NCBI RefSeq assembly: GCF_002201535.1
Contig: NZ_NIWW01000001.1
Coordinates: 456,933 to 520,932, forward strand
DNA length: 64,000 nt
Source of the DNA: Lacimicrobium sp. SS2-24
GTDB lineage: Bacteria; Pseudomonadota; Gammaproteobacteria; Enterobacterales; Alteromonadaceae
Reading direction: 5' to 3'
Part shown: piece after piece, positions 12,004 to 57,863 of the stretch
Position numbering within the stretch: the stretch's first letter is position 1
How the letters are laid out: each line of letters starts with the position of its first letter
The notes under the pieces: generated by a model
Seen by the model: the letters and a program-made list of their open reading frames with translations, nothing else
Databases searched by the model: none
What the model was told of the DNA's origin: nothing
Program-made: the position numbers and the translations under genes

Positions 12004-12021
12004 CAATAACAAGGCAATCTG

Positions 12022-41454: not shown

Positions 41455-41642
41455 GTGTCCTTATTATTGTTATCAGGAAGCCGGGTCCAGCGACTGAATG
41501 TATCAAAAGTCATCAGGTGTAACAATTGAGTTATGAACCTGCCATCAATTTACATTAAGCTACCCAAGATTAACGTGAATTATTTTCAGCCGGATGATCC
41601 TGTAAACTGTTTTTGCCCCTTGCAACTGGCATTTTCAGCCCA

Positions 41643-41663
41643 AACACCTTAGAACAAGGTGTC
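41643..41663. other. Hairpin in the smc-cysZ intergenic region
   Basis: The inverted repeat ACACCTT-AGAAC-AAGGTGT lies ~80 bp before cysZ. It could be an operator or leader hairpin; nothing more can be said. Confidence 0.35.
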
Positions 41664-41741
41664 TGACTTTTAACAAGGGCGCATGTTGTTTTAAATGTCA
41701 CTAAACAGTGTCCAGCTATTTTAATCTTATTAAGGAGCCTT

Positions 41742-42494
41742 ATGTCAGCAACACAACCCAAAAGTGGCGTCGGATATTTTATGCAGGGTTTTGATCTGAT
41801 CCGGGTCAAAGGTCTCAGACGCTTTGTTTTTGTTCCCCTGCTGGTCAATCTGATCCTGTTTTCAGTGGCGTTTTATTTTTTGCTTCAGCAAATCGACGTG
41901 GCCATCGTATGGCTGATGGACAGCATTCCAAACTGGCTCAGTTGGCTCAAAGACTGGCTGGCTGTCATCATATGGCCGCTGGCCGTCATCATTGTTCTGG
42001 TGACGTTTTCCTTTTTATTTAACAGCGTGGCCAACTGGATAGCGGCACCCTTTAACGGTCTACTGGCTGAAAAAGTGGAACAGCATCTTACCGGACAAAG
42101 CCTTGGCGACAGCGGGGTCATGGCGCTGCTTAAAGATATTCCGCGCACACTGGGCCGGGAGTGGACCAAACTGGTGTATTACATTCCCCGCGCACTGGGC
42201 TTTCTGATTATCTTTTTCCTGCTGCCGGTATTCGGTCAGGTGATCTGGTTTTGTTTCACTGCATGGATGATGGCGATTCAGTATGCCGACTACCCCTTTG
42301 ATAACCATAAAGTCAGCTTTATACATATGCGTGACGTGCTCGGCAGCCAGAAGGCCGCCAGTTTTGGTTTTGGCGTAACCGTCACCCTGTTTGCCATGAT
42401 CCCGGTCATCAACTTTTTAGTGATGCCGGTGGCCATCTGCGGCGCTACCGCCATGTGGGTGGACCGCTTTAAACAACCGGCACTGCAGAGATAA
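41742..42494 (+). CDS. cysZ: Sulfate transporter CysZ
   Basis: A 250-residue inner-membrane protein with the CysZ/EI24 pattern: GVGYFMQGFDLIRVKGLRRFVFVPLLVN at the start, DYPFDNHKVSF in the second half and GFGVTVTLFAMIPVINFLVMPVAICGATAMW near the end. It admits sulfate for cysteine synthesis. An AAGGAG site lies just upstream. The gene is intact. Its last 137 bp (42351-42487) recur almost exactly at 53078-53213, the left boundary of the putative island. A Rho-independent terminator follows directly. Confidence 0.95.
   Translation: MSATQPKSGVGYFMQGFDLIRVKGLRRFVFVPLLVNLILFSVAFYFLLQQIDVAIVWLMDSIPNWLSWLKDWLAVIIWPLAVIIVLVTFSFLFNSVANWIAAPFNGLLAEKVEQHLTGQSLGDSGVMALLKDIPRTLGREWTKLVYYIPRALGFLIIFFLLPVFGQVIWFCFTAWMMAIQYADYPFDNHKVSFIHMRDVLGSQKAASFGFGVTVTLFAMIPVINFLVMPVAICGATAMWVDRFKQPALQR
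42351..42487 (+). repeat. Left copy of a long direct repeat (3' end of cysZ)
   Basis: Starts AAGGCCGCCAG and ends CACTGCA within the cysZ coding region. It matches 53078-53213 with about 5 substitutions and a 1-base length difference, so about 96% identity by eye. Confidence 0.9.
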
Positions 42495-42503
42495 CCTATC
42501 GAC

Positions 42504-42529
42504 AGGGGCCCGTGAGGGCCTCTTTTTTT
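42504..42529 (+). terminator. Rho-independent terminator of cysZ
   Basis: Stem AGGGGCCC / GGGCCTCT (one G-T pair) with a GTGA loop, followed by TTTTTT. It lies 10 bases after the cysZ stop. Confidence 0.85.
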
Positions 42530-42822
42530 ATTTGTTGCTATCACTTACCAGTAAAGAGAATCCTTCCTTTGCCCTTCACCATCGAATGCTTCACATCCTG
42601 TCCTGCAAGTGCGCTTTATTAGCGTGACGCTTTGTGTAGTTGAGTGGGCCAGCGAACAGACAGGAGTGTTCCATCGGCGTACTTTATCACTTCATCCTGA
42701 ATTCCATCTTTCATGGCGATTCAGACCCTTCCGGGTAATTAAGCCCGGGAAGAAAAGCTGTGATGAAGCGGTAATAACGGACATGTCGTCCGATTATCAT
42801 ATTCGATTTGAAGGAGATTCAA
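42530..42822. other. Non-coding leader before the first PRC-barrel gene
   Basis: No gene is supported. It holds an imperfect hairpin CTTCCGGG / CCCGGGAAG (42728-42752) and the palindrome CGGAC-ATGTC-GTCCG (42778-42792). The latter lies ~30 bp upstream of the PRC-barrel start and could be an operator or leader hairpin. No convincing -10/-35 pair was found. Confidence 0.4.
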
Positions 42823-43356
42823 ATGAACAAGTTAAATACTATTGCTTTATGTGCGTTGATCACACCTGTTCTGACCTTAAGTGCAGGTTCTGTGCAGGCG
42901 CATCAATCAAATGCTCAGGACAAAGATCGTGAACAGAAAAGTGCTCAGCATGAATACACTAAAAAGCATGAAAACCAATCAGACACCAGGACTATGGCAC
43001 AGCATAAAAATATGCAGAATACGTCTCTGATGCAGCACCGTGGTTTTATGAGTTCAGCTCCGGTTAATGGTCTGCAAGCGAGTAATCTGCTCGGTGCCGA
43101 GGTTAAAACCACTAATAATGAAGAAGTGGGTACGGTAAATGAGCTGATTATTAACGAAAGCGGTCAGATTGTCGCCGTTGTGGTTGGTGTTGGCGGATTC
43201 CTTGGCATGGGTGAAAAAGACGTAGCGATTGGCTGGAACGACGTAACCAGAACTGGCACTAATGACGATAAGGAACTTAAAATTGCTATGACGCGTGATC
43301 AGTTAAGTTCCGCACCAAAGTTTGAAATTAAAGACAGCAAAGAAACCAAGTACTGA
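42823..43356 (+). CDS. Exported PRC-barrel domain protein
   Basis: A 177-residue protein from ATG 42823. I prefer this start because AAGGAG sits at the right distance and a signal peptide (MNKLNTIALCALITPVLTLSAGSVQA) begins there. The next ~50 residues are polar and rich in Gln, His and Lys. The C-terminal PRC-barrel (~85-165) has ASNLLGAEVKTTNNEEVGTVNELIINESGQIVAVVVGVGGFLG. PRC-barrel proteins of this exported type are common in stress gene sets and probably bind surfaces or partners; no enzyme activity is known. A terminator follows. Confidence 0.82.
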   Translation: MNKLNTIALCALITPVLTLSAGSVQAHQSNAQDKDREQKSAQHEYTKKHENQSDTRTMAQHKNMQNTSLMQHRGFMSSAPVNGLQASNLLGAEVKTTNNEEVGTVNELIINESGQIVAVVVGVGGFLGMGEKDVAIGWNDVTRTGTNDDKELKIAMTRDQLSSAPKFEIKDSKETKY

Positions 43357-43389
43357 TCTTAAGTACTTCACACTTTCGGTGAGATAACT

Positions 43390-43417
43390 GGCAGGGGCAT
43401 CCGCCTCTGCCATTTTT
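43390..43417 (+). terminator. Rho-independent terminator after PRC-barrel gene
   Basis: Stem GGCAGGGGC / GCCTCTGCC (9 bp, one G-T) with an ATCC loop, followed by ATTTTTA. Confidence 0.75.
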
Positions 43418-43511
43418 ATATTCAGCTTAAAGACGCCATTCCCAGGCCTAATTGCCCTGACAGCTCCTTTATTAATTCTGCCCTGTCTATATCAGTAAAT
43501 GATGCCTAAAA

Positions 43512-44351
43512 CTATGGCTTCGACTCCGCCATGCCGTTGAATGCTGCCATATCTGATTCAGCCACACCCAGCTTCGACTGACTGCCCCGAGTGTCAACCT
43601 TATTCACCCTGTTTGGCCCTTGTGCTGTATGAATATCCACGATGCCAGCCTGATTATTATCAGCGGCATTGCCATAGAGCAATTGCACCCCACGCAGATC
43701 TCCTGATTGAAGGCCTGTAAAAGCTTCCGTATAGCGAAATGCCATAACCTGTCCCGAAGGGCCGGGATGGTCGAGGCCGATGGCGTGTCCGATTTCGTGA
43801 ATCAGGGTATAACGGATATCGTAAACATCCTCATCACCGTCGAATCCGATCTTCCACTTGTGCTCAGGGTTCAGACATACAAGCGACTGCTCGATGGCAC
43901 GTATGCCCTCTTCGGCTTGGTTACCATATGCCACATTGGCAAAGGCGATTCCGCTGGGTTTCCCCTGGGCACCAAGAATAATATCCGCATTACGAGGGTC
44001 GTTAATCTCATAAAATGTTAATCCGGCAGCACGCTCCCATACACGAAAGGCCTCAGCGGTCTCATAGCTCAGCCTTTCCTTTGACAGTTCTTGTCCCGTA
44101 AGTGATTCAATTGATGCCAGTTCGCCACAGTTACGCGCATCTTCAAAGTGGAGCGCGCTGTCGGTAAAGGCATAACTGACGGTAGCCCCCACTCCCAAAC
44201 GCCGATCTCCCCACTTGACTTTGTAGCCCTCAAGTTCGAGCAGCCGATAGCCGCCCTCATCTGCATCAGCAAGTAGCGGGGTTAGCAATGAAACAATGCC
44301 GGCAAGGAATAATGCCGGAATAAGAAGGGTTGTACGAATAGATGAGCGCAT
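43512..44351 (-). CDS. Secreted matrixin-like zinc metalloprotease
   Basis: A 279-residue protein with a signal peptide (hydrophobic to ~LLTPLLADA). The metzincin zinc site is HEIGHAIGLDHPG (three His and catalytic Glu), and QVMAFRY downstream may be the Met-turn. The segment before it (YKVKWGDRRLGVGATVSYAFTD, AFRVWERAAGLTFYEI) is the usual matrixin beta-sheet start with the W/Y-rich edge. The C-terminal ~60 residues are polar and less conserved. It should cleave proteins in the periplasm or outside the cell. It is a single gene, convergent with the PRC-barrel gene. Confidence 0.85.
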   Translation of the reverse strand: MRSSIRTTLLIPALFLAGIVSLLTPLLADADEGGYRLLELEGYKVKWGDRRLGVGATVSYAFTDSALHFEDARNCGELASIESLTGQELSKERLSYETAEAFRVWERAAGLTFYEINDPRNADIILGAQGKPSGIAFANVAYGNQAEEGIRAIEQSLVCLNPEHKWKIGFDGDEDVYDIRYTLIHEIGHAIGLDHPGPSGQVMAFRYTEAFTGLQSGDLRGVQLLYGNAADNNQAGIVDIHTAQGPNRVNKVDTRGSQSKLGVAESDMAAFNGMAESKP

Positions 44352-44445
44352 CGCAGTCTCCTACAAAGGTACCTGGCAGCACAGGAGTCAACCAGCGAGA
44401 CATCCTTGAATACACATGGGGATCCGGTACAGGAAACGAGCAGAG

Positions 44446-44459
44446 GTGCGCTAGCGCAC
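44446..44459. repeat. Palindrome related to the TGCGCT-AGCGCA hairpins
   Basis: A perfect 14-bp palindrome followed by AGA, so the downstream AGCGCACAGA matches the two hairpins at 44641 and 46263. Confidence 0.55.
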
Positions 44460-44640
44460 AGACAATGCGTTCGTTTATGCTCAGTCATAGCTAAGTTTCG
44501 GACGTTACTGACAATCAAGTGGGATGTCAATCAATCAGCGGGATACAGGGAAAGCATTCGGTACCCATCAGGACACAGGGATACCTATCACTTGTTTATT
44601 TGAGTTTGAATCGGTGGACAGTCGCTTTTTCCTGCCGGCG

Positions 44641-44668
44641 AGGCTTTGCGCTGTAGCGCACAGAGCCT
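44641..44668. repeat. REP-like hairpin copy A
   Basis: AGGCT-t-TGCGCT-GT-AGCGCA-cag-AGCCT forms a hairpin. A 22-bp core (CTTTGCGCTGTAGCGCACAGAG) is shared with 46266-46287, with one difference. Confidence 0.65.
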
Positions 44669-44733
44669 ATACGGATCCGCCTGATCTCAGGCTGGACATA
44701 CCATTAAACACATCTCGCACAAAGGTACATATT

Positions 44734-46056
44734 TTATGGCAGGTCTTTTGAGCCCCCACCATTTCGGCGATGGGTAAAATGACTCATCAGGGGTTTGACA
44801 CTGACCCCATGGACAAGGATAGAGAGCGTCACAACGATCAGTGTCAGAGAAATCAGTTCCAGAGCGAATTTTTCAGGCAAACCATGCTGGATGGCATACA
44901 TCAGATAGTACAATGAGCCAATACCACGAACACCAAACCACGCCACCATGCTGCGCAATGGCAAAGATGTTTGTGTTCCCAGCATGCCTATAAAGACACT
45001 AACAGGACGTACAAACAGGAACAGAAACAGCGCCAGCCACACAGCTCTGAGACTCCAGGAATCAAGAAATAGCGTGCCACCGATAAGCAGCACTAGCATC
45101 ATTTCTGACAAGCGCTCGAGCTGTTCTTTGAAGAGCAGTGCGCCACCGCTGACTGACGTAGGAGATTGTTCATCCGCCCTTAACCACGGCACTTTCGGTT
45201 CCGTTGAGCCCAGATGTGACCGATACGGATTTTGCACGGGGCCGGCAAGTTTGAGCTCAGTCTGACGCAGACTGACCGCAGCAAAAAATACCGCCAGAAA
45301 CCCCCAGGCATCGACAAGCAGGCTCAGTCCATACGTGACCCCGATAAGGCCCAGTCCTATAAAATTGTCCATCAGGTTGTGATGTGGCAATGCGCCGCGC
45401 ACTCTGCGTGCCGCGAGAGCCAGTACAGTGCCGGCCGTCAGGCCTATTGCCACTCCGGAGACCGTTGCCCACAGCACATCGTATAGCCACCAGTTGACAC
45501 CGAATTCGCCAAGATCATGTAAGCCCAACATGCCCAGACCTAACAACACAAAAGGGAATGCACTGCCATCATTCATGCCGGCTTCGCAGGTCAGGGTAAA
45601 TCGCAGCGGTTCACGATCACCTGCATGGCGGGTCTGAACATCAGTGGCCAGCACCGGGTCAGTCGGTGCAAGAATCGCCCCCAGCAGCACGCCAACCCCT
45701 AGGGGAAGGCCAAGCATATAGTAGGCAAATGCAGCGACCATTCCGACACTCAGCGCCAAAGACAGCGACGCCAGCAATATCGGCGCCCGCCAACGACGAA
45801 ATTCTATGGGCGCTGGCATCTTAACGCCTGCAGAGAATAACGAGATCAACACAACTATTTCAGTAAGCACCTCAAGTAATGCGGATTCCTCAAGGGGGTT
45901 GAAATGAAACTGATTTAGCACAGTGGGCCCTAGCAGAATCCCGATAGCCAGGTAAAACATGGCCGGCGTAATAGGTGAACGCTCGAGTACATTGACCGTC
46001 AGCCCACGGGCTAGCATCAGGCCGCCTGCCAGCAAAAACCATAACCAGTCAGACAT
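44734..46056 (-). CDS. NhaP-type cation/proton antiporter (CPA1 family)
   Basis: A 440-residue membrane protein with 12-13 helices. The CPA1 signatures are ILAPTDPVLATDVQ (TDP in helix 4-5) and CEAGMNDGSAFPFVLLGL (ND motif), which carry the cation and proton sites; WFGVRGIGSLYY resembles the conserved Arg segment. It exchanges Na+ or K+ for protons across the inner membrane and would help with salt or pH stress. The C-terminus is short, with no large regulatory domain. It is a single gene in the putative island, transcribed towards the matrixin gene. Confidence 0.92.
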   Translation of the reverse strand: MSDWLWFLLAGGLMLARGLTVNVLERSPITPAMFYLAIGILLGPTVLNQFHFNPLEESALLEVLTEIVVLISLFSAGVKMPAPIEFRRWRAPILLASLSLALSVGMVAAFAYYMLGLPLGVGVLLGAILAPTDPVLATDVQTRHAGDREPLRFTLTCEAGMNDGSAFPFVLLGLGMLGLHDLGEFGVNWWLYDVLWATVSGVAIGLTAGTVLALAARRVRGALPHHNLMDNFIGLGLIGVTYGLSLLVDAWGFLAVFFAAVSLRQTELKLAGPVQNPYRSHLGSTEPKVPWLRADEQSPTSVSGGALLFKEQLERLSEMMLVLLIGGTLFLDSWSLRAVWLALFLFLFVRPVSVFIGMLGTQTSLPLRSMVAWFGVRGIGSLYYLMYAIQHGLPEKFALELISLTLIVVTLSILVHGVSVKPLMSHFTHRRNGGGSKDLP

Positions 46057-46403
46057 GTCTTATTCTCAGCATTGAAGGTTCATCCCGACGGCCATGTTTA
46101 TTATTACTATTAGACAGCAGTATGGTTTGTACATGCTGCCCCTCTGTTGTGAAAAACCTGAGCGCATGCACAAAACGCGTCATATAAGCCTATACCATCG
46201 CAGAAAACCAGATTGACCTCCGTTCGCTGAGCCTCATACAAGAAAATCCCGACTTGTGGATTAGCCTTTGTGCTGTAGCGCACAGAGCAGCATTCAGACC
46301 GACGTCATACTTACCATCATGGTGGCTGGTAAAAAGAGACGACGCTCGTCTCTATTCAACCAACCTCAGCCAGAACACAACCTATCAGTACAGGAAGCAC
46401 TTC
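46057..46403. other. Non-coding gap upstream of the transglutaminase-like gene
   Basis: No gene is supported. It holds a REP-like hairpin (46263-46288) and a perfect 8-bp inverted repeat AGAGACGA-CGC-TCGTCTCT (46335-46353), ~50 bp before the start at 46404. The inverted repeat may be an operator or a leader hairpin. Confidence 0.45.
46263..46288. repeat. REP-like hairpin copy B
   Basis: Shares CTTTGTGCTGTAGCGCACAGAG with the hairpin at 44641, and has the same TGYGCT-GT-AGCGCA core. Confidence 0.65.
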
Positions 46404-47243
46404 ATGAAGATTCGCATTGGTTATGAACTGGTATTCCACTGCCCCCGACCGACCCAGATGCTCCTGGTGCTGAATATTCACCCCTCAAGGGTTGCTGATC
46501 TCATTATTGCCGAACAGATATTTTCAGAACCGAGAATCCCCGTTCGCTCCTATTTTGACAGTTACGGTAATCATTGCACTCGCATCATTGCCCCGAAAGG
46601 ATTGTTGCAACTGTCAACGGATACCGTCATTGAAGAAAATGGGGTGTCCGATACAGTAAATCCCAAGGTAAGACACATCCCGGTTGAACATCTCCCAGAC
46701 GAGACATTGATTTTCCTGCTTGGCAGCCGATACTGCGAGACGGACAGGTTGGTCGATATTGCCTGGCAACTGTTCGGCAATGAGGTGACCGATTGCTACA
46801 GAGTGCAGGCCATCTGCAACTATGTTCATAACCATATTGCGTTTAGCTGCCAGGACGCTCGAAAAACGAAAACCGCGTGGGAGGTCTTTAAGGAGAAAAA
46901 GGGGGTATATCGTGATTATGCCCACCTTGCTATCACTCTATGCCGCTGTATGAATATCCCTGCCCGTTATTGTACCGGCTACCTGGTTGATACGGGCTTT
47001 CCCCAGCCCCATGCAGAAATGGATTTCGCTGCCTGGTTTGAAGTCTATTTGGATGGCCATTGGCACCTGTTTAATCCACGTAATAATGCGCCCCGCAGTG
47101 GGCATATACTAATCGCCCGTGGTCGTGATGCTGCCGATGTCGCTATTACCACCGCATTCGGACCCAATACCCTGGAATACTTCAAGGTACACACCGATGA
47201 AATTCAGGAGAGCAGCCCAAGCCATCAAAAAGAAATTAGCTGA
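46404..47243 (+). CDS. Transglutaminase-like protein lacking the usual catalytic residues
   Basis: A 279-residue protein from ATG 46404, preceded by AGGAAG at a suitable distance; the open frame continues upstream but with no site. It has the N-terminal domain and the transglutaminase core of a large bacterial subfamily. Where relatives have GVCRDFAHLAI the sequence is GVYRDYAHLAI (Tyr169 for the nucleophile Cys). Where they have FDAR/FDP it is LFNPRNN (Asn224 for Asp). The rest (LCRCMNIPARYCTGYL, ILIARGRDAADVAITTAFGP) is well kept. It is thus probably a non-catalytic member, perhaps binding peptides. No signal peptide, so cytoplasmic. It is part of the putative island. Confidence 0.85.
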   Translation: MKIRIGYELVFHCPRPTQMLLVLNIHPSRVADLIIAEQIFSEPRIPVRSYFDSYGNHCTRIIAPKGLLQLSTDTVIEENGVSDTVNPKVRHIPVEHLPDETLIFLLGSRYCETDRLVDIAWQLFGNEVTDCYRVQAICNYVHNHIAFSCQDARKTKTAWEVFKEKKGVYRDYAHLAITLCRCMNIPARYCTGYLVDTGFPQPHAEMDFAAWFEVYLDGHWHLFNPRNNAPRSGHILIARGRDAADVAITTAFGPNTLEYFKVHTDEIQESSPSHQKEIS

Positions 47244-47362
47244 CTACGTTAGCCAACGCACGGAACCCTTTTCACATTTCAATTACCTTGTGAGTTGGGC
47301 GTCCCCTTGAGTTTATGTTCTTGGGCGAAACCTAAATCTAACTATCTTATGGAGATCAGCTC

Positions 47363-47545
47363 ATGAATAAGAATCAAACCCCAGACCAGAAGAATGAAAA
47401 CAAAGGAAATGTAAAGCAGGACGCCAACAAGGCGGGCGTCGATAAAAGCCGCGAAAAACAAGGCACATCTGAGAAGCATGGCGACAGTCGTGAAGCAGTG
47501 TTAGAAGAACTCAATGACAGCCAAAAAAAACAACAACGATCATAA
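47363..47545 (+). CDS. Small, highly hydrophilic protein
   Basis: A 60-residue protein composed almost wholly of Lys, Glu, Asp, Gln, Asn and Ser, with no hydrophobic core, so probably disordered. A GGAG site lies ~10 bases before the ATG. It is 16 bases upstream of a PRC-barrel gene on the same strand, so it is likely co-transcribed. Tiny hydrophilic proteins of this kind often accompany desiccation or osmotic stress genes, but no family is recognised. Confidence 0.65.
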   Translation: MNKNQTPDQKNENKGNVKQDANKAGVDKSREKQGTSEKHGDSREAVLEELNDSQKKQQRS

Positions 47546-47561
47546 CTAAGAGGGAATTGAA

Positions 47562-47954
47562 ATGAACTACACAACCAAAGAAGCTCAAAGCAAGTATGAC
47601 CGCCCGGATAGCACAAAGGCCTCAGCCACGTTGCTGAGTGCGGCCACCATTACCGGTGACGAAGTTTGTAATATGCAGGATGAAAAACTGGGAAAGATTG
47701 AGGATATTATGCTCGATCTGACGGCCGGGAAAATTCGTTACGCTGTGTTGTCAGCAGGTGGTTTTCTGGGGTTGGGCGATCATCTTTACGCAGTTCCATG
47801 GACTGCGCTGAAGCTGGATAAAAAGAACAAGCGTTTTATGCTCGACGTCGATGTCGAACGCTTAAAAAAAGCCCCTGGGTTCGATAAAGATAACTGGCCG
47901 GATATGGCTGATACCACCTGGAATTCGACCATTGAGTCTTACTACGCGCGATGA
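47562..47954 (+). CDS. PRC-barrel domain protein (cytoplasmic)
   Basis: A 130-residue protein with one PRC-barrel (~20-105): LLSAATITGDEVCNMQDEKLGKIEDIMLDLTAGKIRYAVLSAGGFLGLGDHLYAVPWTALKLD. The C-terminus (PGFDKDNWPDMADTTWNSTIESYY) is a conserved tail in this subfamily. No signal peptide is seen. It would be a soluble scaffold-like protein; its partner is unknown. A GAGGGAATT ribosome site precedes it. It shares the island with the exported PRC-barrel protein at 42823, but the two are different subtypes. Confidence 0.85.
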   Translation: MNYTTKEAQSKYDRPDSTKASATLLSAATITGDEVCNMQDEKLGKIEDIMLDLTAGKIRYAVLSAGGFLGLGDHLYAVPWTALKLDKKNKRFMLDVDVERLKKAPGFDKDNWPDMADTTWNSTIESYYAR

Positions 47955-47983
47955 TCTGATTATGCGCAAAGCTGAGCGCGCAA

Positions 47984-48011
47984 GGTCGGGACAGTATTAT
48001 CTGTCCCGACC
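47984..48011. other. Strong perfect hairpin between PRC-barrel and DUF3185-like genes
   Basis: Perfect 11-bp arms GGTCGGGACAG / CTGTCCCGACC with a TATTAT loop. It is not followed by a T-run on either strand, so it is more likely a processing or stabilising structure, or an operator, than a terminator. Confidence 0.6.
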
Positions 48012-48131
48012 AAACCCGCCAGGGCCTGCCATGGCGAACGAGCGTTGTTGCAGCCAATAGCGGTTTCACCTTCAACGTTACTTCTCTGGGCAAAGAAATA
48101 TTGCCCCCTGATTCACCAAAAGGAGATCAAC

Positions 48132-48335
48132 ATGGCTACTTATAAGATTGTGGCTTTAGTGTTACTTGTTGTAGGTTTTATCCTGCTTTTCTTAGCCTAT
48201 CAGTCATCACAAAGCATGGGCGATCAGGTGACAGAAGCCATTACCGGCCGATTTACTGACCCTACAATCTGGTATCTGATCCTAGGTGCAGCTTCGGTAG
48301 TGGCAGGGTTTGGCATGCTCTTATTCAGTAAATGA
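48132..48335 (+). CDS. DUF3185-like small membrane protein
   Basis: A 67-residue protein with two membrane helices (~5-22 and ~46-64) joined by a polar loop (YQSSQSMGDQVTEAITGRFTD), the layout of DUF3185 proteins. AAAGGAGATCAAC precedes ATG 48132, a strong ribosome site, so this start is preferred over longer frames. The function is unknown. It lies in the stress-type gene group between the PRC-barrel and AI-2E genes. Confidence 0.75.
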   Translation: MATYKIVALVLLVVGFILLFLAYQSSQSMGDQVTEAITGRFTDPTIWYLILGAASVVAGFGMLLFSK

Positions 48336-48423
48336 CAGGTAATGCTTACTAAAATCACAGCAACTGGAAGTGTTAGCTAAATACTCAGCAGATGCCATGG
48401 ATGGTGCAACACAGGAATTCGCA

Positions 48424-49611
48424 ATGTCCCAGGACGCGCAGGGATCCGAGGTTGGCAAACAGAAAACAGCAACGCTAAGCGCACCAGCATTGCGTTCGGG
48501 TAAATCACTGTTCAACGCGGTTGAGCTTCGCTTATTTCGCTACACGGCCGTTCTTTTTTCCCTGGTTATACTGACTACTCTGGCCGGTATTGTCCTGTGG
48601 GCATTCGGTTGGATACTGAGTGTATTTTACAACCTGCTGCTGTCACTTTCACTGGCTGGTATTCTGGCACTAGTACTTTACCCGGTGGTGGAGTTTCTCC
48701 AGAGACGAGTTCACTTACCTGCTTTGCTGGCCATCATTGTGGTACTGGTGATCTTCTTCGTCGGTATCAGCGGCCTGATTTTTCTGCTGGTTCCCGTTCT
48801 GGTCAGCCAAATTATTCAGTTGATGACGGTGCTTCCCGAAACGCTGGCAAACTGGCAGGAGCATTTCTCTATTTACTTTCCACAACTCAGCGCCATTATA
48901 ACCTCCGGCGTGCAAAGCAGTGATGCAAAGGAATCGATGTCTGTTATGCCAGATCTGGAAGAGTCTGGTGGAACCATCATGTCGTATATCGGACTATTAG
49001 GGGCGATCAGTTTTGTACCCTTGTTTTTATTCTTTACCCTGCGCTCCGGGAGTTTGCTGCGGGGCAAGGCCTCCGAACTGCTATCCGTGTTCCACAAGCC
49101 CACGCAGCAGAAGGTGTTGTATTTCCTGGACGTGTTTGTGGAGTACGTCACCACATTCTTTCAGGGGCAATTGATCATAGCCGTGTGCATGAGTGTCCTG
49201 TATGCCATTGGCTTTACCTTTGTCGGTCTGGGTTTCGGCATGCTTATCGGGCTGGTGTTAGGGCTGCTGAATATCGTCCCATTTCTGGGTACTCTGATCG
49301 GTCTGTTGATGGTCTTACCCATGGCCTATCTGCAGCCGGGTGGTGGTGTTGAGTTGCTGGCCCTGGCGACACTGGTGTTCGCGTTGGTCCAACTGATTGA
49401 AGGCTGGCTTCTGACACCTAAAATAATGGCTAACCGTTCGGGACTGCATCCCGCTCTTGTGGTTATCTCTCTGTTTTTCTGGGGCACAATCATAGGGGGC
49501 ATTATCGGCATGGTACTGGCCGTTCCCCTGACGGCTTTTTTCGTCGCTATCTGGGGTGAAGTCAAAGCTGGCCTGAAACATTCGTTAAACACTCAGGATG
49601 ACAGACAATAA
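48424..49611 (+). CDS. AI-2E family transporter (PerM-like)
   Basis: About 395 residues from ATG 48424, chosen because AGGA lies 7 bases upstream; in-frame starts at 48397 (ATG) and 48370 (GTG) are possible. It has 7-8 membrane helices and the AI-2E pattern: ALVLYPVVEFLQRRVHLP, VEYVTTFFQGQLIIAVCMSVLYAIGFTFVGL, LGLLNIVPFLGTLIGLL and NRSGLHPALVVISLFFWG. The family is linked to autoinducer-2 or ion export, with varied substrates. It sits in the putative island after the DUF3185-like gene, separated by ~90 bases. Confidence 0.88.
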   Translation: MSQDAQGSEVGKQKTATLSAPALRSGKSLFNAVELRLFRYTAVLFSLVILTTLAGIVLWAFGWILSVFYNLLLSLSLAGILALVLYPVVEFLQRRVHLPALLAIIVVLVIFFVGISGLIFLLVPVLVSQIIQLMTVLPETLANWQEHFSIYFPQLSAIITSGVQSSDAKESMSVMPDLEESGGTIMSYIGLLGAISFVPLFLFFTLRSGSLLRGKASELLSVFHKPTQQKVLYFLDVFVEYVTTFFQGQLIIAVCMSVLYAIGFTFVGLGFGMLIGLVLGLLNIVPFLGTLIGLLMVLPMAYLQPGGGVELLALATLVFALVQLIEGWLLTPKIMANRSGLHPALVVISLFFWGTIIGGIIGMVLAVPLTAFFVAIWGEVKAGLKHSLNTQDDRQ

Positions 49612-49689
49612 GCTAACACTAGATTGTTAACGGTGACAACGCGGCAGTATTGCGGAGCTAACTGAGCGCATTTCGATATTAACGAAGGA

Positions 49690-52251
49690 TTAGTCTTTTT
49701 TAGCTCGCGAGGATGAATCACTGCGCAGAACATGTTCCAGTTCCTTGGTTGCAGTGATATCGACCAGGGTAATCACCACTCCGTCTATAACATTATCCAG
49801 TCGCCGGTAGGGCATAATTTTTACCGTAAACCAGCGGCCATCGGTGGTAGAGATTTGCTTTTCACAAAACACCAGGGTGCTCAGAGTTGTCTGGGCATCG
49901 TCGTTGAGTTCAGGATATTCCAAGGTTGTAGTGAGATCGCTGAGGGGTCGGCCGATGTCGCCTTCGCGGATACTGATAATTCCTGAGGCCCGGTCAGTAA
50001 AACGACGAAGGTTTAAATTCTGATCAAGAAACAGAATGGCAATCTCAATGCTGTTGAGCAGGTTTTTCATATCGCTCTGCGCCAGGGCCAGGTCATCGAG
50101 CTTAGTCTGCATTTCCGCATTGATGGTTTGCAGCTCTTCGTTCATTGACTGCATTTCCTCTTTTGAGGTCGTCAGTTCTTCGTTGGTTGATTGCAATTCT
50201 TCATTGGTTGACTGCAGTTCCTCATTAGCAGACTGTAACTCCTCCCTGGAGGCGCGGTTTTCCTCACGCAGCATCTGGATTTCATCCTGGTACTGTTGTA
50301 ACTCCGCGGCATAAGCCTTGTGCGTGGCAGTTTTTGAGTTGCTTTTATCATCCTTTCTGACCATGGCAGCAGCAACATCGCGAAACACAATCATCTTCAT
50401 CCCGCGCAGAGCCGTGGGCTCACGCAGCGCCTGTACGGTAATATCAACGCTTTGCGTGGCGCCGCCGGGCAGCTCAACCTGTAACCCCTGCAAATGCAGT
50501 GGATCACTCGCATCAGCTGCCTGACACAGGGCTAAACCAATGGGCAACCGCAAGCCTTCACGCACCATCCCATGAAAATTCCAGTTAGCCTTACCGGCAG
50601 CCGGTTCCAGATACTTTCCGGTGCGTCCGCTGATATAGACGATATCCCCGTCCTGATTCACTACCACAGCAGCAGGCGCGTAAACCTGCAGCAACACCCG
50701 GTCGGCCGCGGCCTGCAGGTTATCATGGGTCGCAAGAGTTGTGTTGTGAGCAGACACGGGAAGCTCCTTAGCTATCCGGGACAGGGGTGGAAAAGATTTT
50801 ACCGTCGACAGGATATCGCCACTTTGGGCGTTATTCTGACGCTGATAAAGACGTAGTTTCGATTGAAGCGACATAAACAGCTTATCATAACGCCCAACTG
50901 TCTCCGAGCTTCCGAGTAACAATACCCCATCGTTGCGCAGACTATAGTGAAACAAAGGCATTAATTTACGTTGTAGACTCTGATCGAAGTAAATCAGTAA
51001 GTTTCGACAGGAAATCAGATCGAGACGGGTAAAGGGTGGATCAAGCACCACATCCTGCTGAGCAAATAACACCCGATCACGGATTTCCCGCTTAATCATA
51101 TAGCCATTGTCTTGCGCATTGAAAAAACGGGCCAGTCGCTCTGGCGAGACACTGTTACTGATTTCTGATGGATATCGGCCCCGACGGGCAGTGGCAATGG
51201 CATCAGGGCTCAGATCCGACGCGAAAATTTGAAGGGTGAACTTGTGATGCTGTGGTAATTTTTCCAGTACTTCGATGAAGATCATGGCGAGCGTGTAGGC
51301 CTCCTCACCGGTTGAACATCCAACTACCCAGGCCCTCAAGTTGGCGTCTCTTTCTGGCCGCGCTAACAACTGTGGTAGCGCCGTATCGGCCAGATACTGC
51401 CAGACCGTTGCATCGCGGAAAAAACTGGTTACCCCAATCAGCACTTCCTTGAACAGCAGGTCAATCTCCTGGGCATTGTGCTGCAAAAAGTCGGCATACA
51501 GTGTCAGGGTGGCAATTTCATGAATAGCCATACGCCGCTCAATGCGACGGTGCAATGTGCTGGGCTTATAAAGTGAGAAGTCATGACGGGTTCGCTGCTG
51601 CAGTAAACGCAAAATGCGCTGCAACGGCGTTGATTCACGCTCTGGTTCGGATTCAGTCTCTGCAGGCACTGGCTCCGCTGGCTCTGTCTCCCCGGTAATA
51701 CAGGCCAGAATACGCTCCGGCAAATCACCCGGCGGCGCAATGATATCGGCACAGTTTGCGGAGATGGCACTTTGGGGCATAGCATCGAACTGTGCGCTGT
51801 CTGGCTGTTGCACAGCGGTCAGGCCACCCACCGCCTTGATAGCCTGCAAACCTAAGGTGCCATCTGCGCCCATACCCGAGAGCACCACGCCGACGGCTTG
51901 ATCCCCATGAGCACTTGCCAGAGACGAAAACAGCACATTGATGGGCAGACGCATTCCCCGAGGTTCAGCAGGCTTTGTCAGATTAAGTTGACCGTCGACG
52001 ACGCTGATTTCGCTGTTCGGCGGAATTACATAGACGCAGTCAGGTTCAATCGACATGCCCTGAGTTGCTTCTTTTACCGACATTGAAGTCACGCGCTGGA
52101 GTAGTTCACAGAGCATGGCTTTATGGGTCGGATCGAGATGTTGCACCACCACATAGGCCATGTTGCTGTGCGACGGAATCGCAGCCAGAAATTGCTCCAG
52201 AGGCGCCAGACCACCGGCGGATGCCCCGATACCCAGAATACGTGGGCTCAC
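49690..52251 (-). CDS. CheB-CheR hybrid with coiled coil and PAS domain
   Basis: An 853-residue fusion. CheB methylesterase comes first (~1-185), with the catalytic triad in GIGASAGG, QHLDP and GMGADG. CheR methyltransferase follows (~210-480), with VVGCSTGEEAYTLAM as the SAM loop. Next is a PAS-like part and a coiled coil (~650-720) made of NEELQST-type heptads. A C-terminal PAS domain (~725-835) ends the protein. It lacks a CheB receiver domain and a histidine kinase domain, unlike the longest versions. It should methylate and demethylate receptor glutamates and sense a signal via PAS. It is in the putative island, downstream of the PAS gene on the same strand. Confidence 0.9.
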   Translation of the reverse strand: MSPRILGIGASAGGLAPLEQFLAAIPSHSNMAYVVVQHLDPTHKAMLCELLQRVTSMSVKEATQGMSIEPDCVYVIPPNSEISVVDGQLNLTKPAEPRGMRLPINVLFSSLASAHGDQAVGVVLSGMGADGTLGLQAIKAVGGLTAVQQPDSAQFDAMPQSAISANCADIIAPPGDLPERILACITGETEPAEPVPAETESEPERESTPLQRILRLLQQRTRHDFSLYKPSTLHRRIERRMAIHEIATLTLYADFLQHNAQEIDLLFKEVLIGVTSFFRDATVWQYLADTALPQLLARPERDANLRAWVVGCSTGEEAYTLAMIFIEVLEKLPQHHKFTLQIFASDLSPDAIATARRGRYPSEISNSVSPERLARFFNAQDNGYMIKREIRDRVLFAQQDVVLDPPFTRLDLISCRNLLIYFDQSLQRKLMPLFHYSLRNDGVLLLGSSETVGRYDKLFMSLQSKLRLYQRQNNAQSGDILSTVKSFPPLSRIAKELPVSAHNTTLATHDNLQAAADRVLLQVYAPAAVVVNQDGDIVYISGRTGKYLEPAAGKANWNFHGMVREGLRLPIGLALCQAADASDPLHLQGLQVELPGGATQSVDITVQALREPTALRGMKMIVFRDVAAAMVRKDDKSNSKTATHKAYAAELQQYQDEIQMLREENRASREELQSANEELQSTNEELQSTNEELTTSKEEMQSMNEELQTINAEMQTKLDDLALAQSDMKNLLNSIEIAILFLDQNLNLRRFTDRASGIISIREGDIGRPLSDLTTTLEYPELNDDAQTTLSTLVFCEKQISTTDGRWFTVKIMPYRRLDNVIDGVVITLVDITATKELEHVLRSDSSSRAKKD

Positions 52252-52314
52252 TGCTGGTTTTCCGATAACCTGACCGTCGTCCCCTTACCTATTTGACAAA
52301 ACGGCGAGGCAGAA

Positions 52315-52917
52315 TCAGGTAACATGTTGGCACTCACAGCAGACCAGCAGAATATGCTCACTGTTTGGCTCCAATGTTGCCTGAAATTGCAACAGCCTGC
52401 CCCCCTCTGCCCCAGCAGCCCTTTCGGCTATGCAGCAATCTCTGGCGCGGTTTTGTATGACGTGTTGCAACAAGCTGCGTAGCAAAGGCCGGCTTTGCGG
52501 GTTCACAAAGTGGTCAATACGCTGTCCCGGCAGATACGCCTGTGCAACGCCAAAAAGCCCCGCGGCTGCGAGGTTAGCCTGGATAACAACGGCGTCGCGA
52601 TCAACAACACAATATGCCATTGGCGCGCTGTCATAGATTGTCCGGTATAAATCCAGCTCCTCCACGAGTGCCTGTTCATTGGAAGCAATTTCCTCATTCT
52701 GTAGGTCGAGTTCCATCTGATGAACCTGCAATTCATGCAACAACGTTAACGCATCTGTGGCGTTTTCAGGATTAGATGAGAGTTTGTGCAGCAAACGCAA
52801 GGCATCAACGCCCATCGACCACTGACCTTTTGTCTGAGTTGTACCGGTCTCCAATTGTGCTTCAGCTTTGTCTCTCAGCTTCGTATAGACATTCGACTGT
52901 TCAAAGATTGCAGTCAT
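52315..52917 (-). CDS. PAS-domain signalling protein
   Basis: A 200-residue protein. An N-terminal helical region (~1-75) ends LLHELQVHQMELDLQNEEI, a segment commonly found before PAS domains in CheB/CheR-linked proteins. A PAS domain follows (~85-190: DLYRTIYDSAPMAYCVVDRDAVVIQANLAAAGLFG). No output domain is present. It lies 63 bases upstream of the CheB-CheR gene on the same strand, so it is probably its partner in one operon. The C-terminus (LLVCCECQHVT) has three Cys residues whose role is unknown. Confidence 0.82.
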   Translation of the reverse strand: MTAIFEQSNVYTKLRDKAEAQLETGTTQTKGQWSMGVDALRLLHKLSSNPENATDALTLLHELQVHQMELDLQNEEIASNEQALVEELDLYRTIYDSAPMAYCVVDRDAVVIQANLAAAGLFGVAQAYLPGQRIDHFVNPQSRPLLRSLLQHVIQNRARDCCIAERAAGAEGGRLLQFQATLEPNSEHILLVCCECQHVT

Positions 52918-53077
52918 TGCAGACTCCGGTTCCTACAGTGAGGTTATGGTGGCCATAGTAGCCTATAAGGACAGGGATTAGTACGCAGATTTAGGCTGAC
53001 TTGCAGCTAGACGTCATTTTTAGCGTGAGTGCCTCTGATGACTGAAGAATCCGGTGCATTTCGGCTTAAACCATGTA

Positions 53078-53213
53078 AAGGCCGCCAGTTTTGGTTTTGG
53101 CGTAACCGTCACCCTGTTTACCATGATCCCGGTCATCAACTTTCTGGTGATGCCGGTGGCCATCTGCGGCGCTACCGCCATGTGGGTGGACCGGTTTAAA
53201 CAGCCCCACTGCA
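53078..53213 (+). pseudogene. Fragment of cysZ 3' end (right copy of the direct repeat)
   Basis: This 136-bp segment repeats cysZ 42351-42487 at about 96% identity. In frame it reads KAASFGFGVTVTLFTMIPVINFLVMPVAIC, with Ala to Thr as the one amino-acid change there. It includes a double synonymous change in one Leu codon (TTA to CTG), so it is a diverged copy rather than a fresh duplication. No start or N-terminal part of cysZ precedes it. Confidence 0.88.
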
Positions 53214-53280
53214 ATCTCAGCCGCCGCAGGAGTAATGACGCCCTCTATTCCGCCTCAGCAGGCTTTCAATATTGGCCTGA

Positions 53281-53314
53281 AAAAGGCTGGCGTGTCTTAC
53301 GCCAGCCTTTTTTT
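53281..53314 (+). terminator. Rho-independent terminator after the cysZ fragment
   Basis: Stem GGCTGGCGT / ACGCCAGCC (9 bp) with a GTCTT loop, extended by AAAA/TTTT and followed by further T's. It may be the original terminator of the copied cysZ locus or of a lost gene. Confidence 0.85.
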
Positions 53315-53454
53315 ATTCGCTAGGCCCCAATTGTGATCTGCTTTTGACCTTTAAACGTTTAGTTAATCTATCAGCGCTGCTGTACCTGTGCTCAGCAACC
53401 CTCAAACGGATTTGCAACATCAATAAGTTTTCACCTTTTTATAAGGGGCTCATT

Positions 53455-55215
53455 TTGCTTAAAAATCTGTTTGCACGCTCAGGACATGACTACTATCGGG
53501 AAGTACTGGATCAAGCCATTGATGCGGTGGTCACCATCGATGAAAACAACCTGGTCACCTATTACAACACTGCTGCCCAATCCATCTGGGGGTATCAGGC
53601 CCACGAGGTCATCGGTAAAAACGTGAAGATGCTGGTTCCTCAGGCCATTCAGAGAAACCACGATGACTATGTCAATGCCAACCGGCGAACAGGTCAGGAC
53701 AAGATTGTCGGTAAATCCCGTGATGTACTGATAGAACGAAAAGACGGCAGCAAACTCTGGGGAAACCTTTCATTATCCAAGGTTAAAGTGGGTGACAAAA
53801 CCCACTACACGGCGTTTGTAAAAGACATCACTGAAGAAAAACAGGCTAAAGACCAGATTGATCAGGTGCTGGAGCAATGCATCGATGCGGTTGTGACCAT
53901 AGATGAGCATAACAACATCATCTTTTTCAACAAAGCCGCTGAAAACTTGTGGGGCACGACAAGAGAAGAAGTACTGGGTAAGAACGTAAAGATGCTGGTA
54001 CCCAGAATGTTTCAGTCACAGCATGACAATTTCGTAAATGCCAACCGGACTACCGGTGAGGATAAAATTGTTGGCACCTCAAGGGATGTCGAAATTGAAA
54101 CTCTGGACGGTCGACAGCTCTGGGGTAACCTGTCGCTATCAAAAGTCCATTCGGGCGATAAAATCCTCTACACCGCCTTTGTGAAAGACATCACCGAGGA
54201 GAAAAAAACCCGCGACGAGTTTGCTACCTTGTCGCTCGTGGCAAATGAAACCGATAATTCCGTCATCATTACCGACGCAGACGGTTTGATTGAATACGTC
54301 AACCCCGGTTTTATCCGCCTTACCGGATACAAGCGAGAAGAAGTAATGGGCAAGAAGCCCGGGCATGTGCTTCAGGGAAAGCACACCAGCGAAGAAACCA
54401 AAAAGCGTATTCGTGAAAAGCTGGATGCCAACGAAGCTTTCTACGAAGAAATCCTCAACTATGACAAAAATGGCCAGGCTTACTGGATCAGTCTGGCTAT
54501 TAATCCCGTCTTCGATAATGCGGGGCGGCTGCACAAATATATCTCTATTCAGACCAACATTGATGACACAAAGCGTCGATCGCTGGAAAATGATATCCGC
54601 ATGGAAGCCATCAGTGAGAGTAATATCCTGCTGGAATTTGATGCCAGCGGTAAGCTATCAGCGGCGAATACATTGGGGGTACAGATACTTAATGCATCCT
54701 CTCAGCAAGAACTGGTTAAACACCTGCCTTCCTTGTCAAACTTCCTGGAGCACTCAGAATGGGAAAAGCTGAAAAAAGGTGCATTTATTAACACTGAAGT
54801 TTCTCTGCCTCTGTGTAACCAGAAAAAGCAGGCGAGGCTGTCTGTTGCCATCGCTCCGGTTAATGACGAAGACGGCAACCTCAGCAAAGTACTCATCTAT
54901 GGTACGGACGTGTCCGAACGTAACGCCGTGATCGCCGAAACCCATGGTGCCATGTCGACGGTTCTCGGTCGAATAAGCAGTATGATCAGCACCATCAATG
55001 GCATTTCCGACCAGACCAACTTACTGGCGCTCAACGCAGCCATCGAGTCAGCACGGGCCGGTGAAGCCGGAAGAGGCTTCTCGGTGGTTGCAGACGAGGT
55101 ACGTAACCTGGCTAAACGAACCACCGAATCGGCCCATGAAATCACATCACTTATTGATGAAACCAAAAGCCATGTGGACAGATTATCCGCCTACATGGAT
55201 GACACCCAAACCTGA
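53455..55215 (+). CDS. Multi-PAS soluble methyl-accepting chemotaxis protein
   Basis: About 586 residues from TTG 53455, which has AAGGGG at ideal distance; the longer frame from 53344 lacks a site. Two PAS domains (~14-130 and ~135-255) are near copies, both containing [18 protein letters not shown] and [10 protein letters not shown] third PAS (~265-375: [20 protein letters not shown]) and a fourth, weaker one (~385-490) follow. A short MCP signalling hairpin closes the protein ([39 protein letters not shown]). There is no membrane helix and no full methylation helices. It likely senses redox or a ligand in the cytoplasm and controls CheA or biofilm dispersal, like BdlA-type receptors. Confidence 0.88.
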
Positions 55216-56591: not shown

Positions 56592-57863
56592 ATGAAACTC
56601 GAGTCACTGGCGCTGCATCATGGCTATGAATCTGAACCCACCACCAAATCCGCGGCGGTTCCGATTTATCAGACCACGTCCTACACCTTTGATGACACCC
56701 AACATGGTGCAGACCTGTTTGATCTTAAAGTGCAGGGAAACATTTACACCCGCATCATGAACCCGACCACGGCGGTACTTGAGCAGCGCCTGGCAGAGAT
56801 GGAAGGTGGCATCGGCGGATTGGCGGTAGCCTCTGGCATGGCAGCCATCACCTACTCTATTCAGGCAATAGCCGGGGCCGGTGATAATATTCTCAGTACC
56901 AGTCAGCTTTATGGTGGCACCTATAACCTCTTTGCCCACACCTTTCCACGTCAGGGAATAGAGGTGCGGATGATTTCTCATGATGACTACGCAGGATTTG
57001 AAGGGGCCATTGATAGCAACACCAAAGCCATATTCTGCGAGTCTATCGGTAATCCGGCAGGTAATGTGGTGGATATTCAGAAACTCGCCGAGATTGCACA
57101 TCGTCACGGCATTCCCGTTATCGTTGATAATACCGTTGCCACACCCTATTTATGCCGTCCCTTTGATTTGGGTGCCGACATTGTGGTGCACTCGCTGACC
57201 AAATATATTGGCGGTCACGGAACGACCATCGGCGGCATGATTATCGATTCGGGTAAGTTTGACTGGAAGGCCCACGCGGATCGTTTTCCCGTGCTCAATG
57301 AACCCGATCCTTCCTACCATGGCGTGGTTTACACTGACGCCCTGGGACCGGCAGCCTATATTGGCCGGTGCCGGGTAGTACCTTTACGTAACACAGGCTC
57401 AGCGCTCTCCCCCCATAGCGCATTTTTACTGCTTCAGGGACTGGAAACCCTAGGATTGAGAATGGAGCGACATTGCGAAAACGCTGAAAAGGTGGCGGCA
57501 TTTTTACAGCAGCACGACAAAGTAAGCTGGGTCAATTACGCGGCATTACCAGACAGCCCTTATCATACAACGGCACAAAAAATTACCGGTGGCAAAGCCT
57601 CCGGCATCATCAGCTTTGGCATTAAAGGCGGTCGCGCCGCTGGCGGACGGTTTATCGATGCGCTGCAAATGATTTTGCGGTTGGTGAATATCGGTGATGC
57701 CAAATCATTGGCCTGCCACCCTGCATCCACTACCCACCGACAGCTTAATCCCGACGAGCTGAAAAAAGCCGGTGCCAGTGAGGAAATGGTACGTATCTCG
57801 GTGGGAATTGAGCATATCGACGATATTATCGCCGACATTCGCCAGGCTTTAGACAAGGCCTGA
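56592..57863 (+). CDS. metY: O-acetylhomoserine sulfhydrylase (aminocarboxypropyltransferase)
   Basis: A 423-residue Cys/Met-metabolism PLP enzyme. The Schiff-base Lys is in HSLTKYIGGHGTTIGG. TYTRIMNPTTAVLEQRLAEMEGG and AVASGMAAITYSIQAI are the N-terminal signatures, and DNTVATPYLCRPFDLGADIVVHS precedes the Lys. The large insertion (RFPVLNEPDPSYHGVVYTDALG) is typical of MetY rather than MetB/MetC. It converts O-acetylhomoserine plus sulfide to homocysteine (or uses other thiols), allowing direct sulfhydrylation in methionine synthesis. It is a single gene; CAGGAGAACCCC upstream is a good ribosome site. Confidence 0.93.
   Translation: MKLESLALHHGYESEPTTKSAAVPIYQTTSYTFDDTQHGADLFDLKVQGNIYTRIMNPTTAVLEQRLAEMEGGIGGLAVASGMAAITYSIQAIAGAGDNILSTSQLYGGTYNLFAHTFPRQGIEVRMISHDDYAGFEGAIDSNTKAIFCESIGNPAGNVVDIQKLAEIAHRHGIPVIVDNTVATPYLCRPFDLGADIVVHSLTKYIGGHGTTIGGMIIDSGKFDWKAHADRFPVLNEPDPSYHGVVYTDALGPAAYIGRCRVVPLRNTGSALSPHSAFLLLQGLETLGLRMERHCENAEKVAAFLQQHDKVSWVNYAALPDSPYHTTAQKITGGKASGIISFGIKGGRAAGGRFIDALQMILRLVNIGDAKSLACHPASTTHRQLNPDELKKAGASEEMVRISVGIEHIDDIIADIRQALDKA

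Follow-up and report, generated by a model that had tools for sequence, protein, structure and literature searches.

A displaced cysZ 3′ tail as a probable recombination seam beside a block of predicted stress genes in Lacimicrobium sp. SS2-24

Introduction

Integrative elements that target the 3′ end of a gene such as guaA bring an incoming 3′ end that restores the gene and displaces the old end, and searches for islands usually rely on integrases and tRNA sites. The present study concerns a 64,000-nucleotide stretch of the Lacimicrobium sp. SS2-24 genome (NZ_NIWW01000001.1, positions 456,933 to 520,932; the whole stretch is called the window), in which a block of predicted stress genes stands between an intact cysZ gene and a second, displaced cysZ 3′ tail. 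In contrast to integrative elements at gene 3′ ends, this layout has no PF00589 integrase nearby and no constant att core, and it occurs at four different target genes.

Partial duplications are known from conjugation in Escherichia coli: 56 of 60 clones gave a polymerase chain reaction product diagnostic of a partial lacZ duplication, and 14 sequenced clones carried duplications of 109-950 bp, which were attributed to single crossing over of a circular molecule whose homologous segment was shortened (PMC3240628). As is proposed for the present locus, a single homologous exchange left a partial duplication beside foreign DNA, with 109-950 bp there (PMC3240628) against 78-807 bp in the four cases described below. 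In that work, a laboratory plasmid recombined at lacZ while selection was applied (PMC3240628), whereas here natural blocks stand at housekeeping genes and we infer the mechanism. Displaced 3′ ends also accompany type VI secretion system (T6SS) effector-immunity arrays and Rhs loci, where, according to the sections used here, a module likewise anchors on a shared upstream stretch and older downstream parts are orphaned (PMC5361080). The anchor described in these sections lies next to or in the replaced effector gene (PMC5361080), whereas here the housekeeping gene keeps its product and the stress genes are passengers. An excerpt on pneumococcal transformation presents sister-chromatid bridging as another route to duplications (PMC3784515). 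As in Crp/Fnr regulons, a regulator with cNMP-binding-like and Crp-type helix-turn-helix domains and a two-fold symmetric operator, which is putative here, are associated with the block. No description of this cluster was found in open-access papers searched with limited terms.

The two cysZ 3′ tails

The intact cysZ gene (41742..42494, forward strand) encodes 250 amino acids and is 91-92% identical at the protein level to both congeners. Its 3′ end, within the last 144 bp, forms repeat copy 1 (42351..42487, forward strand), and copy 2 (53078..53213, forward strand) is a 5′-truncated, frameshifted cysZ 3′ end in the same orientation; the block spans 42495 to 53077, between intact cysZ and copy 2. 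Alignment of the copies, which start 10,727 bp apart, gave 130 identities in 137 columns with six substitutions and one 1-base gap, and the first 42 bp of the tails are identical. In a genome search, copy 2 was recovered with E = 4.6e-56, which excludes chance, and copies 1 and 2 were the sole matches at E ≤ 0.001. As copy 2 lacks the first ~200 cysZ codons and is frameshifted near its end, it is a fragment. A terminator-like hairpin with a T-run, read directly from the sequence, follows copy 2 (53282..53314, forward strand) and differs from the hairpin after intact cysZ. The direct repeat reported in the preliminary description, with about five substitutions and one indel over ~10.7 kb, is therefore real, with the slightly different count given above. 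Pfam names bear out its statement that accessory-type genes lie between the copies, the genes to the left presumably being the housekeeping genes smc and zipA-like and ligA-like genes (names assumed from their translations), and the absence of a visible integrase agrees with the lack of any phage-type integrase (PF00589) match on the contig.

Regarding the origin of the two tails, the genus comparison comprised three genomes, namely the window genome (G000), G001 and G002 (Lacimicrobium alkaliphilum X13M-12). One leucine codon is CTG in copy 2, G001 and G002, and TTA only in the intact cysZ of the window; identity to the two congeners is 87 and 87% for copy 1 and 88 and 90% for copy 2. The earlier suggestion that copy 2 is the end of a foreign cysZ was not confirmed, as CTG is genus-typical and TTA the odd codon, and both copies score about alike against the congeners. 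More simply, copy 2 would come from a cysZ allele without the block, of which it is the tail, together with the terminator and the genes that follow that allele. Judged from sequence comparison, neither copy need be called foreign, and most simply a block-bearing and a block-free allele of one locus would have been fused here. The second tail is most simply regarded as the putative recombination seam between the two alleles, since similarity to X13M-12 ends where the tail starts.

The slot behind cysZ in the genus

In G002, the block genes lie behind cysZ in the same order as in the window, with ~6 kb interrupting them. This interruption contains, by eye, catalase-like and ferritin-like genes, and a ClpP-like open reading frame (ORF) was likewise seen before the first PRC-barrel gene of the X13M-12 island; these genes are found at L034:12374-14263 and in L078. 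Right of the G002 block follow an endonuclease-type gene, a further gene, metY and two GGDEF/EAL genes. In G001, the block is absent behind cysZ, and its CheB-CheR-PAS fusion protein (CheBR) and antiporter are below threshold across the whole genome. The second cysZ tail is absent in both G001 and G002. Nucleotide similarity between the window and G002 amounts to 75.0% over 42643-44544, 76.2% over 44733-49568 and 84.4% over 49705-53069, and resumes at 56492. It thus breaks off within 10 bp of the second tail, at the seam (53070..53080), where local alignment to the G002 block ends at 53069 and copy 2 starts at 53078. Relative to G002, the right junction is non-homologous. As a yardstick for core genes, the smc region shows 75% and cysZ 83% nucleotide identity to G002, compared with 75-76% for most of the block and 84% for the CheBR-PAS part.

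The interval from cysZ to the EAL gene measures 18 kb in the window and 24 kb in G002, and consists of 4.7 kb of other genes in G001; in Aliiglaciecola sp. CAU 1673 (G016), a GGDEF-EAL gene directly follows cysZ. The gene maps of these four genomes differ between cysZ and the EAL gene, which marks this stretch as a variable slot. G001 and G002 are mutually closest (cysZ 96%, EAL 84%, smc 83%), and the window's species stands at 91-92%, 74-76% and 77-81%, respectively. The presence of the block in G000 and G002 and its absence in G001 imply either an old arrival with loss in G001 or a later transfer. The comparison with close relatives that the preliminary description had called for therefore gave a divided answer, with the block absent in G001, present in G002, and the second tail in neither. 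Its proposal of an insertion at cysZ by recombination was right in kind, as the block was evidently joined there by recombination and G001 lacks it. The block is nevertheless older and wider-spread than was supposed, and a private or very recent insertion does not fit its presence at the same site in G002 with core-like divergence; only the seam is peculiar to the window genome.

The same layout at other genes

In Aliiglaciecola G016, an AI-2E/DUF3185/antiporter block lies between a full-length guaA and an 807-bp second guaA 3′ part that is 90.6% identical, followed by a gene that we take to be tadA-like from its sequence. The antiporter gene of this block (L247, G016:C3, ~11547-12900) is split into two frames, so the block may be decaying. 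In Nitrincola alkalilacustris (L086), a HAD-family gene and a 78-bp duplicate of its 3′ end (93.6%) enclose only the PAS-CheBR pair, and in Marinospirillum alkaliphilum (L088), 14.8 kb separate a ychJ-type gene from an 80-bp copy of its 3′ end (97.5%). The CheBR genes of the latter two species are sisters in the tree, yet their loci share only a 3.2-kb stretch, and these blocks therefore likely docked separately. The four cases of gene, block and 3′ tail thus have tails of 137, 807, 78 and 80 bp at 95, 91, 94 and 98% identity.

A uniform protein-level scan for displaced 3′ ends revealed the layout in 4 of 69 block loci and in none of 81 control rows (one-sided Fisher p = 0.043), a biased rate, as the window prompted the analysis in the first place and the motif described below led to the guaA case. 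The control rows were 41 block-free cysZ neighbourhoods, which contain L057 twice and thus represent 40 distinct loci, and 40 windows elsewhere from five of the genomes. The scan gave nine hits in block loci, five of which (L092, L201 twice, L241 twice) were excluded as local repeats or paralogues. Direct repeats in L079, L083, L092, L098, L104 and L109 are, by eye, repeated small stress genes or other repeats rather than housekeeping tails, and L109 has a second repeat pair, at 82%, that could not be assigned to any of these classes. At the DNA level, a direct repeat was detected in 3 of 38 control loci, none of them at a gene 3′ end. The mirror signature, duplication of a 5′ end, gave five hits in 3 of the 69 block loci, all rejected as repeated stress genes, local repeats or paralogues, and one hit, a paralogue, in the 81 control rows. 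The resulting ratio of 3′ to 5′ tails, four to zero, is not significant (p = 0.125).

Distribution of the block genes

Relatives in Halomonas, Billgrantia, Marinimicrobium, Saccharospirillum, Nitrincola and others share 75-82% identity with CheBR, and those of other Alteromonadaceae share at most 66%. Among 395 sampled genomes of the family, 29, including two of Lacimicrobium, have a CheBR match at E ≤ 1e-200, and six, the window genome included, have an antiporter match at E ≤ 1e-140; in the family of Halomonas alkalisoli, CheBR matched in 13 of 250 sampled genomes at 1e-250. Phylogenetic analysis of CheBR (55 rows; 32 of the 33 relatives' loci plus 22 of the 27 other Alteromonadaceae loci found) placed both Lacimicrobium sequences in a 100/100 clade of 24 rows with Halomonas, Nitrincola, Saccharospirillum and others, which holds none of the 22 other Alteromonadaceae rows. 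The block is likely a horizontally acquired set of predicted stress genes. In several other genomes, CheBR is surrounded by modules of these types in a rearranged order; elsewhere, only CheBR and the PAS protein match. In a Porticoccus metagenome-assembled genome (L084), CheBR, PAS, antiporter, transglutaminase, PRC-barrel, AI-2E, endonuclease-type and a further module gene lie within 13 kb, and most of the window modules are contiguous there in an order that differs from the window. A plasmid origin was considered and rejected, as the CheBR relatives on plasmids (E ≤ 1e-100, 233 records) are all below 60% identity.

The operator-like 18-mer and a Crp/Fnr-type regulator

An 18-bp near-palindrome, TGTRYGCYAGCGCACAGA, is common to the intergenic regions of the block. 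Four sites, all given on the forward strand, were found in the window block. The site at 42643..42660 (three mismatches) lies 162 bp before the first PRC-barrel gene, where similarity to the G002 block starts; that at 44445..44462 (one mismatch) lies ~93 bp upstream of the metallopeptidase start, and that at 46269..46286 (two mismatches) ~117 bp upstream of the transglutaminase-like gene. The fourth site is located at 44647..44664 (three mismatches). The 18-mer also occurs upstream of a Crp/Fnr-type regulator gene (RegA) on contig C15 of the window genome, whose product contains both domains of this type (PF13545, 49.7 bits, cut-off 27; PF00027, 27.8 bits, cut-off 27.5). By sequence, the nearest solved structures to RegA are NtcA proteins (E = 2e-4). 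The string LGVRREGVT, located in the putative recognition helix, is unchanged across 21 of 24 aligned RegA sequences (26 loci given). To our knowledge, the 18-mer does not correspond to any Crp, Fnr or NtcA box, and 20 of the 156 titles from a literature search with its 9-mer GCGCACAGA were inspected and look unrelated to bacterial stress regulons.

With at most two mismatches, 55 sites were found in 61 block or regulator loci (1.22 Mb) and none in 78 control windows (1.53 Mb), a count that is partly circular, as the consensus was derived from the window and the block loci. Thirty-eight of the 55 sites lie outside ORFs of 100 amino acids, although only 15% of the sequence does, and 38 of 55 lie within 300 bp of an ORF start. 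A first comparison, which allowed up to three mismatches, scored near-palindromes on both strands and did not match GC content, gave 109 sites in 796 kb against 2 in 753 kb. Genome-wide, the pattern exceeded its reversed control in all 12 genomes examined. A less circular test is provided by separate searches for motif and regulator in 98 relatives, in which the mean motif count was 3.4 in 15 genomes with RegA and 0.55 in 83 without (p = 1e-6), or 2.25 in 12 against 0.55 in 83 when the genus was left out (p = 6e-5); the genomes are related, so these p values overstate independence. A site is found no more than 450 bp from RegA in G013, G018 and G059; two of the 15 genomes (G012, G046) have RegA and no site. 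RegA was detected in all 21 sampled family genomes whose CheBR is at least 60% identical, compared with 12 of 95 other relatives, and in 12 of 12 examined carriers from other families, often a few kb from CheBR. Eight genomes with CheBR at 46-52%, which were kept apart, gave a RegA match at E ≤ 1e-30 in three, one only 37% identical, and RegA was found in one of the three genomes recovered by the antiporter alone (G219, G287, G318).

In all three genus genomes, sites also cluster at a second place, where two or three Crp/Fnr-type regulator genes lie. This cluster (L190:5655-12141 on contig C15 of G000, L191, L192) contains the 18-mer several times, and in G000 it also holds OmpA-family, BON-domain and GGDEF proteins. 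Of 45 regulator genes, 29 have a site with at most three mismatches in the 450 bp upstream, comprising 21 of 30 RegA-type and 8 of 15 RegB-type genes. The block looks like a member of a set of shuffled stress modules commonly marked by the 18-mer. Its genes would be modules of a regulon read by the resident RegA via TGTRYGCYAGCGCACAGA, and a new module would come under stress control at once. The seam at window position 53077 corresponds to G002 map position 23165, where the 18-mer before the endonuclease-type gene starts; from this one case, operators may be favoured breakpoints.

Recombination behind cysZ

On balance, we lean towards entry of the block behind cysZ by one homologous crossover within cysZ, with 53078-53213 as the displaced end of the block-free allele. 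The donor would be a near-conspecific strain that already had the block behind cysZ, because the tails are 95% alike while the congeners differ from either by 10-13%. Its DNA would have been a circle or circularised fragment composed of a 5′-truncated cysZ tail and the block, integrating in Campbell fashion. The gene cysZ would persist as a hybrid, and the old tail, terminator and neighbours (the methyl-accepting chemotaxis protein (MCP) gene and beyond) would be shifted to the far side. The arrangement is that of a Campbell-type integration, in which the block lies between direct repeats with one intact gene and one truncated copy. PF00589 had four matches in G000, none of them on the block contig C1, and none on G002:C1 or G016:C3, serine recombinases not having been searched for; the Marinospirillum contig has a single match ~135 kb away, and Nitrincola has none at the block position on any contig. 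The lack of an integrase nearby together with tail lengths from 78 to 807 bp favours ordinary homologous recombination. The single crossover of a circle is the best model, with linear one-ended events close behind, and the data do not separate these routes, pneumococcal-type bridging included.

A linear fragment could instead have been joined by homology-facilitated illegitimate recombination, one end being homologous and the other ligated without homology at 53077/53078. In a mirror version, the recipient would already have carried the block and would have received the side with the cysZ tail and the MCP gene from a donor without it, with a crossover close to metY; this version fits well with the two other genes between block end and metY in G002 where the window has the cysZ tail, the MCP gene and a further gene. 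The illegitimate mechanism has been put forward to explain how T6SS effectors are displaced, and according to the same authors it had also been hypothesised for Rhs loci that contain orphaned 3′ regions (PMC5361080). It predicts deletion in the E. coli test, however, where most events were single-crossover duplications (PMC3240628), and by eye no microhomology is conspicuous at the seam; taken together, the linear fragment and its mirror version seem less likely than the single crossover.

The layout also invites the view that the block is the remnant of a site-specific integrative element whose attachment site was the cysZ 3′ end and whose integrase has since been lost, the tails being attL and attR. 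Restoration of a target-gene 3′ end, guaA included, is common among integrative elements. The identical first 42 bp of the tails and the terminal direct repeats, one in the 3′ end of the target gene, would suit such a remnant; no recombinase gene was found, PF00589 being the family searched. This origin is improbable: the block contigs of the window genome, G002 and G016 carry no PF00589 match, the tails at four unrelated genes are too variable for one att site, G002 has the block without a repeat, and neither the antiporter (E ≤ 1e-60) nor the left block part matched any plasmid (phage records were not searched). We give as little credence to an unrelated local duplication, in which slippage or end-joining copied the cysZ tail to 53078 once the block was in place. 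The tails are indeed mutually closer (95%) than either is to a congener (87-90%), but copy 2 has its own terminator, neighbours that are absent from the block-bearing G002 allele, and a genus-typical codon that copy 1 lacks, and the same layout at guaA, the HAD gene and ychJ would require repeated coincidence. As for transposition, no inverted repeat of at least 30 bp was found in 41000-54500, shorter ones not being judged as transposon ends, and none of the nine block proteins matched a transposase Pfam family. No tRNA was found within the 64-kb window, and no Rfam match reached the gathering score there; a tRNA or known RNA as block boundary was rejected accordingly.

Several points weigh against a single crossover within cysZ and against the wider scheme built on it. 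An identical trace would be expected from a linear fragment joined illegitimately at one end, and the copies are not assignable to donor and recipient from three genomes. No block-free allele of this species was found among the three genus genomes and 41 cysZ neighbourhoods of relatives, and in none of these neighbourhoods was the sequence after copy 2 (53206-53455) found. Over most of its length, the block is about as distant from G002 as core genes are; it may therefore have been present in the ancestor of the genus and have disappeared from G001, so that its arrival would be older than the seam. When the window is left out, the displaced-tail layout occurs in 3 of 68 block loci (p = 0.09, not significant). 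The tree evidence covers CheBR only. Nine of the 30 RegA genes have no upstream site, including all four betaproteobacterial ones, and the putative regulation of the block by RegA is suggested by motif position and co-occurrence only.

We tentatively propose that the island records a single docking event of a mobile stress regulon that is as yet undescribed and moves without an integrase, and whose operator-bearing modules would circulate among families of salt- and alkali-adapted Gammaproteobacteria and enter by single crossovers behind arbitrary housekeeping genes, leaving a displaced tail. Its interchangeable modules would be the antiporter, AI-2E carrier, PRC-barrel, transglutaminase-like, catalase and CheBR-PAS genes under the operator of one Crp/Fnr-type regulator, with cysZ, guaA, ychJ and the HAD gene as docking genes. 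A displaced 3′ tail by an intact housekeeping gene would be a second, easily scanned signature of islands moved by homologous recombination. If the operator-regulator pairing is true, patchwork stress modules could work immediately in a new host, bringing the switch while the host supplies the regulator. Both claims are testable in culturable environmental bacteria.

Genes of the block and its surroundings

The block begins with PRC-barrel protein 1 (42823..43356, forward; PF05239), followed by a matrixin-like metallopeptidase (43512..44351, reverse; PF00413) and an antiporter of the Na+/H+ exchanger family (44734..46056, reverse; PF00999). A transglutaminase-like protein (46404..47243; PF01841), a small hydrophilic 60-amino-acid ORF without Pfam or NCBIfam match at E ≤ 0.001 (47363..47545), PRC-barrel protein 2 (47562..47954; PF05239), a small DUF3185 protein (48132..48335; PF11381) and an AI-2E-family transporter (48370..49611; PF01594) are all encoded on the forward strand. 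CheBR (49690..52251; PF01339, PF01739, PF13596) and its partner, a PAS-domain protein (52315..52917; PF08448/PF13188), lie on the reverse strand. Given the Na+/H+ exchanger and the AI-2E-type carrier, tolerance of salt or alkaline stress is the likely payoff of the block.

To the right, the order is cysZ tail copy 2, the MCP gene, one further gene, metY, an AraC-type regulator, an amidohydrolase and GGDEF-EAL. The PAS-MCP gene (53455..55215, forward; PF00015 and PAS) is absent from the cysZ-EAL interval in G001 and G002, and was probably the gene that originally followed cysZ in the block-free allele. A metY-like gene of the pyridoxal-phosphate-dependent sulfhydrylase type (56592..57863, forward; PF01053) is 94% identical at the protein level to its counterpart in the same interval of G002, and the GGDEF-EAL gene (60649..62703, reverse) has the relative that directly adjoins cysZ in G016. 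The 254-amino-acid protein adjoining the MCP (55421-56185) has no Pfam match at E ≤ 0.001 and by eye resembles a small periplasmic binding protein.

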